A DNA stretch of 64,000 nt from a bacterium (GTDB lineage Bacteria > UBA10199 > 2-02-FULL-44-16 > JAAZCA01), in assembly GCA_021810905.1 (NCBI GenBank), contig JAJZQH010000007.1, forward strand, positions 1 through 64,000, given 5' to 3'. The notes beneath the pieces were generated by a model, which worked only from the letters and a program-made list of their open reading frames with translations, had not been told where the DNA came from and made no database searches. The position numbers and the translations under genes are program-made. Positions 860 to 62,556 of the stretch are shown here, piece after piece; position 1 is the stretch's first letter; the number at the start of each line of letters is the position of its first letter.

Positions 860-961
860 GCCGGTATGGCGAAAACGGTAAACGCGATAGCTTTGGAAGC
901 TATTGAGGCTTGGATGCCAAGTCCTAGAAGCCTCGTGCGGGTTCGAGCCCCGCTACCGGTA
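860..961 (+). tRNA. Class II (Leu-type) tRNA with UGG (Pro) anticodon, carried in the IS
   Basis: A full cloverleaf can be drawn. The acceptor stem is 860-866/954-960 (7 bp, first pair G-U). The D arm (GCG, loop AAAACGGTAAA, CGC at 869-885) is typical of leucine tRNAs. The anticodon stem ATAGC/GCTAT (887-891/899-903) encloses loop TTTGGAA, giving anticodon TGG at 894-896. The variable region (904-936) is 33 nt with a 6-bp stem GAGGCT/AGCCTC. The T arm is GCGGG-TTCGAGC-CCCGC (937-953). The discriminator is A961, as in Leu tRNAs; CCA is not encoded. TGG would read proline codons, but normal tRNA-Pro has a short variable loop. TGG differs from Leu anticodon TAG by one base. A bacterial LeuRS that ignores the anticodon could charge it with leucine, making it a possible missense (allo-type) tRNA. 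It could also be a non-functional variant. Confidence 0.8.
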
Positions 962-1949: not shown

Positions 1950-1998
1950 ACCTTAATATTATACATAACGCACAGAATTGTCAAGGACTATCTGTGCG

Positions 1999-3939: not shown

Positions 3940-4290
3940 ATGAAGGTCGGAAAAAAACGCGCGCCTGTCGCTGAAGCTCGCGCCGATACCCCAGTGGATG
4001 AGCTCGGAGAAAAGGAAACGCTGATGCATTACAACGCGGTGTTGCTGGAAGATCTCAAGTCCAAGATGGAATTGATCATCGAGTGGATGCAGGCGATTGA
4101 ACTCAGGTTCAACGTCACATTCGAGGCCATCGACAAGCGTTTTGACGCCATCGATGCGCGCTTCTTGACCCTGGAGGCGGCGGTGCGCGGGCTGAAGGGC
4201 GATATCATGATACTCGATGCCAAGTTCGATCGCCTCGTCCCCCGCGTGGACAACCACGAGCACCGCATCTCCGCGCTGGAGCAGGCGTAA
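3940..4290 (+). CDS. Small coiled-coil protein, unknown function
   Basis: A 116-residue protein; ATG 3940 follows GAGAGAGGAGG. The central part repeats a heptad-like pattern (FEAIDKRFDAIDARFLTLEAAVRGLKGDIMILDAKFDRLVPRV), predicting a long parallel coiled coil. There is no signal peptide or membrane segment. The N-terminus is basic (MKVGKKRAPVAEARAD). I do not recognise a functional family; short proteins of this shape are often annotated only as hypothetical. It is convergent with the permease gene at 4299. Confidence 0.65.
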   Translation: MKVGKKRAPVAEARADTPVDELGEKETLMHYNAVLLEDLKSKMELIIEWMQAIELRFNVTFEAIDKRFDAIDARFLTLEAAVRGLKGDIMILDAKFDRLVPRVDNHEHRISALEQA

Positions 4291-62170: not shown

Positions 62171-62208
62171 CCCCGCGGGCCCGTTTGTTTGCAAGCGGGT
62201 CCGCGGGG
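62171..62208 (+). other. GC hairpin overlapping the tmRNA 5' end
   Basis: CCCCGCGGGCCCG (62171-62183) pairs with CGGGTCCGCGGGG (62196-62208), with one mismatch. The right arm covers the first three Gs of mature tmRNA. In the precursor this hairpin competes with the acceptor stem and may guide or delay 5' processing. Confidence 0.7.
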
Positions 62209-62556
62209 GGCGACTAGCTTTCGACGCGGACGATAGAGTACGCGCGGCATGCCGGCCTGTCAGCAAGCCGTAAAACTGTTGGCACAAAACTTAATTGCCA
62301 ATAACGAATTGGCTCTCGCTGCCTAACTAAAGGTGGCGCGTCAACCAGCCGACGCCCGCTGAGCTGGAAGACGCCGCTAGCGGGCTGGCTGTCCCAAGTT
62401 CTCCCTGGCGAGGGACAGCAAGAACCAGCAGGGATAGTCTCCGAATAATCCTGTCTCCGGGAGTCTTTGGAGATGAAACTCAAAACAGGGACTAAGCATG
62501 TAGAAGCGCGCATGAAGTCTTCGCGGACGAGGGTGCGAATCCCTCCGCCTCCACCA
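62206..62556 (+). ncRNA. ssrA: tmRNA (transfer-messenger RNA)
   Basis: One-piece tmRNA of ~351 nt. The acceptor stem GGGGGCG (62206-62212) pairs with CGCCTCC (62546-62552), followed by A and an encoded CCA. The 5' tRNA-like start GACTAGCTTTCGACG is diagnostic, as is the T arm near 62527-62545 (GAGGGTGCGAATCCCTC). The tag reading frame at 62282-62326 is GCA CAA AAC ... GCC TAA and encodes AQNLIANNELALAA, ending in the ALAA degradation signal. It lies next to smpB, and a terminator follows. It rescues stalled ribosomes. Confidence 0.98.

Follow-up and report, generated by a model that had tools for sequence, protein, structure and literature searches.

tRNAs with mismatched body and anticodon in a clade of IS1595-family transposons

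Introduction

Why should an insertion sequence carry a tRNA whose body is of the leucine type and whose anticodon belongs to proline? Only a few natural mistranslating tRNAs are known, and what selective value they have is under debate. The gene that raises this question, a class II tRNA with a leucine-type body, the anticodon UGG (Pro), a 33-nt variable region and no encoded CCA, lies at positions 860-961 (+) of the window, the whole 64,000-nucleotide stretch of bacterial DNA analysed here. An earlier note had described it as a complete tRNA within a mobile element that could insert leucine at proline codons.

The tRNA gene

The tRNA at 860-961 is real and complete. A match to Rfam RF00005 spans exactly these positions (+) with 57.1 bits (gathering score 29, E 5e-11), a good score where a pseudo tRNA by covariance model would have counted against the note. 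Its stems are fully paired, as had been claimed (acceptor 7/7, D 3/3, anticodon 5/5, T 5/5), and it is the sole cloverleaf with at least 19 pairs detected in the 64-kb window. The anticodon loop TTTGGAA (891-897, +) places UGG at positions 34-36 in the cloverleaf parse. Fold prediction returns the cloverleaf (z -3.1) with no competing folding, and the pairs of the anticodon stem ATAGC/GCTAT have predicted probabilities of at least 0.96, in support of the anticodon originally read. A73, the first pair G1-U72 and the length of the variable region are likewise as described. ARAGORN does not report a tRNA at 860-961, a miss that the long variable arm presumably explains, and calls similar tRNAs tRNA-Pro from their anticodon; tRNAs of this kind are missed, or misnamed, by a standard annotation tool.

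In E. coli, leucine identity depends on A73, A15-U48, G18G19 and A20a and not on the anticodon or the long variable arm, while C2-G71 repels SerRS (PMC9976931); the premise that LeuRS is independent of the anticodon thus agrees with the literature. All of these leucine determinants are found in the window tRNA, which fails the tRNA-Leu criterion of a leucine anticodon. Two criteria for a bacterial tRNA-Pro, anticodon NGG and A73, are met (UGG, A73) and two, C1-G72 and G15-C48, are not (G1-U72, A15-U48). The leucine determinants were worked out in E. coli and Aquifex rather than in the hosts of the elements described below.

The insertion sequence and its host

The tRNA lies, as the note had it, inside an insertion sequence: a complete IS1595-family element of 1799 bp (217-2015), present in one copy in the genome. 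The left terminal inverted repeat, CGGAAGTATGTACTTAACGCACAG (217-240, +), is 24 bp long and 100% complementary to the right one (1992-2015, -), and an exact 8-bp target-site duplication, TTTCCTTT, flanks the element at 209-216 and 2016-2023. The IS1595-family (ISXO2-like) transposase of 314 aa (1005-1949, -) matches PF12762 (155 bits), PF12760 (43 bits) and NF033547 (213 bits; cut-off 75 bits). When the flanks are joined without the element, an ORF6N-domain (phage antirepressor-like) gene (1999-2541, -), the 3' end of which is broken by the insertion, is restored with a frame ending in KKEKIGFALGRG and a stop. Beyond this gene the window contains a 32-nt inverted repeat (2672-2703 / 2934-2965, 97% complementary) with a nested 18-nt inverted pair (2804-2821 / 2889-2906).

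The tRNA and the transposase gene are convergent, the tRNA lying 43 bases beyond the transposase stop. A promoter-like site of the transposase, TTGACA-17-TAATAT, is found at 1955-1984 (-), and a terminator-like hairpin (1014-1034, +) lies 53 nt downstream of the tRNA; six terminator-like hairpins were found in the region, with 2.8 expected by chance. Just 5' of the tRNA lies a 14-bp perfect hairpin (803-847). Its tail, rich in T on the minus strand, gives it the look of an intrinsic terminator of leftward transcription, opposite to the tRNA. Judged by eye, similar hairpins precede the tRNA by 10-40 nt in most related elements, with the T-rich side on the opposite strand.

Two other passengers accompany the tRNA. 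A small conserved ORF of 53 aa (281-442, -), of the family GPxPxRLKIDGDWExAVxKALxKKKPxxGWP, had no match in Pfam and NCBIfam searches; by blastp clustering, a small basic protein (about 50-66 aa) accompanies the transposase in 17 of 18 delimited elements. The C-terminal fragment of a putative coiled-coil plus winged-helix gene (551-772, +), with a truncated start and no match in a Pfam search, is represented by an intact gene in the relative L167, the relationship being judged by eye (...NGTFGL... in the window, ...NTFGL... in L167). A gene of this type is often the immediate upstream neighbour of the tRNA and shares its strand (L167, L049, L180, L181, L182, L185, L223), and in some elements an HTH/ImmA-like gene is the same-strand upstream neighbour instead. 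These genes and the upstream hairpins may regulate the element tRNA.

The host genome (2.98 Mb in 21 contigs, 99.5% complete) was searched with Rfam for its other tRNAs. Ordinary tRNA-Pro genes with UGG, CGG and GGG are present elsewhere, so that the element tRNA is not needed as a proline tRNA, as are ordinary tRNA-Leu genes with UAG, CAG, CAA and GAG; tRNA-Leu(UAA) was not found in this search. A tmRNA with the tag peptide ANNELALAA lies in the window at 62206-62556 (+).

The transposase clade

When the transposase was used to scan 84,980 species genomes, three close relatives emerged (L048, L049 and L050; 54-66% identity), all three with a class II tRNA whose anticodon does not fit its body. 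Another 20 members came from searching the phyla to which these genomes and the window belong. In a maximum-likelihood tree with 15 other IS1595 transposases, the 24 nearest transposases group together as a single clade (support 100/99), drawn from several phyla; several of the genomes are metagenome assemblies. In most clade elements the terminal repeat is GGAAGTATGTACTT or differs little from it, and an 8-bp duplication is present; L048 likewise has AAACGTTT on both sides as its target duplication. In these repeats and duplications, and in PF12762 and PF12760, the elements resemble IS1595-family insertion sequences with passenger genes.

A search for the same tRNA beside IS1595 transposases of other genomes, as the note had suggested, showed that 18 of the 24 clade members carry a tRNA. 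Nor are homologous elements shedding it, since the tRNA is conserved and the single decayed remnant is a 3' half in L168; none was detected in the other five members, three of which lack both ends defined. In contrast, a cloverleaf scan of IS1595 loci outside the clade (transposases of about 40-46% identity) found no credible tRNA passenger except at L120, where an ordinary-looking tRNA-Tyr lies nearby.

The linkage was also approached with a pattern independent of the transposase, consisting of the leucine-like D arm of the element tRNAs plus UGG. Among 397 planctomycete-class genomes it matched 13 places: nine known elements, two places (L190, L195) that adjoin partial transposases of the clade, and two chance matches. 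In the window's phylum it matched only G000 and G037, the two genomes that have the transposase. The tRNA type is thus found in the 397 genomes only beside this transposase clade, which indicates that it travels with the transposon. Virus contigs gave 38 matches, 34 without a cloverleaf in the scan (many of them one phage gene) and four real tRNAs, three of which have remnants of this transposon next to them. The four virus tRNAs and L190/L195 were left out of the anticodon statistics, UGG being part of the pattern that found them. DNA-similarity searches found no copy of the element in plasmids and none of the tRNA in phages. Separately, a phage-borne leucine-like D arm (TGGCGAAA..GGTAAACGC) occurs in virus contigs L201, L216, L217, L222, L231 and L237, several of which have a T-arm-like stretch, with no normal cloverleaf between the two.

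The element tRNAs compared

The element tRNAs were collected by Rfam and cloverleaf scan regardless of anticodon; three (L182, L183, L185) were parsed by eye because the cloverleaf scan required U33. Seventeen are leucine-type, with A73 and A15-U48 in 17/17, C2-G71 in 16/17, and G18G19 and the T-loop bases kept in all. Stem pairs are maintained in 287 of 289 cases (acceptor 119/119, anticodon 83/85, T 85/85), with many compensatory changes and different pair types. There are about 10 G-U pairs to 2 A-C mismatches, which identifies the sense strand as the product; the antisense strand was considered and rejected because these counts and the T-loop and D-loop bases favour the sense strand.

No leucine anticodon occurs among the 17, although the collection was blind to anticodon: thirteen have UGG and one AGG (Pro), two have UGC (Ala) and one UUA (stop). 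The eighteenth tRNA, in L050, has a serine-type body (G73) with the leucine anticodon UAG, so that all 18 have a non-cognate anticodon. The combination proposed from a single locus, a leucine-type body and a proline anticodon on a mobile element, is therefore conserved across the clade. In L050, a malformed tRNA-like RNA (3968-4052, -), which has either an anticodon loop of 4 nt or, in a five-stem form, an additional hairpin, occupies the usual place behind the transposase, which suggests that this lineage swapped its original tRNA for the serine-type one. A second tRNA-like RNA is also found behind the UUA tRNA of L172 (L156 2666-2739, -, the same element), with a weak match to the tmRNA family and an abnormal anticodon region.

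The anticodon loop is 7 nt long in 17/17, and the triplet is its best-kept part, positions 34, 35 and 36 being identical in 16, 16 and 14 of 17 tRNAs and positions 33, 37 and 38 in 13, 12 and 10. U33 is replaced by C, A or G in four (L170, L185, L182, L183), and most UGG forms have A37 rather than G37 beside G36. Two features had been called unusual for the window tRNA. The first pair G1-U72 is indeed atypical, as 14 of the 17 tRNAs have G-C; the 33-nt variable region falls within the range of the group, 5 to 34 nt. G1 is present in 16/17, and the lone C1-G72 tRNA has the anticodon UGC.

Proposed function and alternatives

We consider it fairly probable, judging from sequence, that the elements carry a missense (once nonsense) tRNA that would be charged by LeuRS and read non-leucine codons; both charging and decoding are inferred. 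The element tRNA would be transcribed and normally processed, receive its CCA from the host, and be charged with leucine through A73 and the core formed by the D loop and variable region. In the window's host it would then compete with the host tRNA-Pro(UGG) in reading CCA and perhaps further CCN codons, imposing low-level proline-to-leucine missense decoding; a few relatives would cause alanine-to-leucine misreading or readthrough of UAA instead. CCA is the rarest proline codon in the long ORFs of the window (5.2 per 1000), and damage from misreading could therefore be limited. The UGC forms lack G3-U70, making charging by AlaRS unlikely, and we know of no synthetase cognate to UUA; leucine is thus the only identity common to all the leucine-type tRNAs.

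Certain observations count against the miscoding reading. Efficient decoding needs U33, and its loss in 4/17 leaves open a weakened or non-decoding role; evolution may have dampened a toxic tRNA in this way, or the function may be one other than decoding. A37 next to G36 is unusual for a reader of CCN. Nor is there a clear benefit to the element; our guess is that the most plausible one would be to perturb, in a regulated way, host translation or the regulators of the element itself.

A tRNA-like RNA with no part in decoding, whether charged or merely folded, might instead have a regulatory or structural role for the element, for example as a ligand of a host tRNA enzyme or as a partner of the small passenger protein or the winged-helix protein. 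The missing U33, the variable region ranging from 5 to 34 nt and the additional tRNA-like RNAs of L050 and L172 with their abnormal anticodon arms would suit such an RNA, and some transposon-linked allo-tRNAs failed in E. coli translation (PMC7609411). We nevertheless regard it as rather unlikely, since a structural RNA has no obvious cause to keep UGG yet avoid leucine anticodons, to conserve the triplet best within the loop, or to retain a 7-nt loop throughout. It is improbable, too, that these are merely odd proline tRNAs, charged by ProRS through G35, G36 and A73 and decoding correctly. The predominance of UGG, the single AGG, the presence of A73 and the name given by ARAGORN all point that way, but the bacterial ProRS determinants are missing: 16/17 have G1 in place of C1-G72, the pair found in the host tRNA-Pro, and all have A15-U48 in place of G15-C48. 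The UGC, UUA and serine-type UAG forms would be left unexplained, and the host already has its three normal Pro tRNAs.

A private code, in which the element's own genes use an altered codon and their proteins are correct only with the tRNA present, would account for the conserved linkage of tRNA and transposase; the data give it hardly any room. The transposases of UGG/AGG elements contain 162 CCN codons, none of which falls at a column that is mostly leucine in other members, so private recoding of the transposase was rejected, a rejection that covers the transposase only. The same holds for 0/57 GCN codons at leucine columns in UGC-element transposases, no in-frame readthrough of UAA was seen in the UUA element L172, and the small ORF retains its prolines in elements with other anticodons. 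Equally hard to credit is a decaying host tRNA-Leu, captured by chance and altered by random anticodon mutations. Some nearby transposases are indeed broken (L169 by TAA, L173 by TAG, L190, L195), yet the stems are near-perfect, with compensatory changes, in 17 divergent elements, even beside broken transposases. The anticodons are not random, most element tRNAs share the D-loop bases AAA..AAA where host tRNA-Leu has GAA..AGA, and tRNA and transposase distances are weakly correlated (Mantel r 0.28, p 0.017). The nonsense codons of L169 and L173 were also considered as targets of suppression and dismissed; their own tRNAs would read CCN, and so these stops look like ordinary decay.

Relation to known systems

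Allo-tRNAs are natural bacterial tRNAs with non-cognate anticodons (Mukai et al. 2017, reviewed in PMC7609411), and one allo-tRNA(UAU) pseudogene overlaps a transposon-related ORF (PMC7609411). The element tRNAs are likewise natural and bacterial, with a non-cognate anticodon and, by inference, an identity independent of it. However, allo-tRNAs have a 12-bp acceptor branch divided 8/4 or 9/3 and mostly serine identity, whereas all 18 element tRNAs have a 7-bp acceptor and a 5-bp T stem (7/5) and the inferred identity is leucine in all but the serine-type one; the label allo-type, which the note had offered, does not hold in its strict sense for the window tRNA. Another difference is that the element tRNAs are intact and belong regularly to a single transposon clade. 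Evolution has also kept dedicated bacterial tRNAs of mismatched body and anticodon in Streptomyces, where the tRNA-Pro variants that serve encoded mistranslation combine a proline body with a different anticodon and typically have a ProRS gene as neighbour (PMC11415595); in contrast, the element tRNAs have leucine bodies and mostly proline anticodons, and lie in a transposon with no synthetase gene. The yeast tRNA-Ser(UGG) mistranslation constructs, which misdecode proline and are charged regardless of anticodon (PMC6827378), resemble the element tRNA in being class II with a proline anticodon, but are laboratory constructs with serine identity.

Implications

None of the open-licence papers searched describes a tRNA gene as a passenger of an IS1595 element, and a widespread transposon group with its own, presumably miscoding, leucine-type tRNA is apparently unreported. 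We propose, stopping a little short of calling it probable, that a selfish element present in several phyla lowers or rewires the accuracy of host translation for its own benefit through a core misreading tRNA, the anticodon (Pro, Ala, stop) and class (Leu, Ser) of which may change provided that the body does not match the anticodon. Such an element could let errors in host proteins, leucine for another residue and usually for proline, spread by transposition. A mobile element that repeatedly keeps such a tRNA, and in one lineage has apparently replaced it, would show that miscoding is selected and spread horizontally, and the clade offers 18 natural tRNA variants for direct tests.
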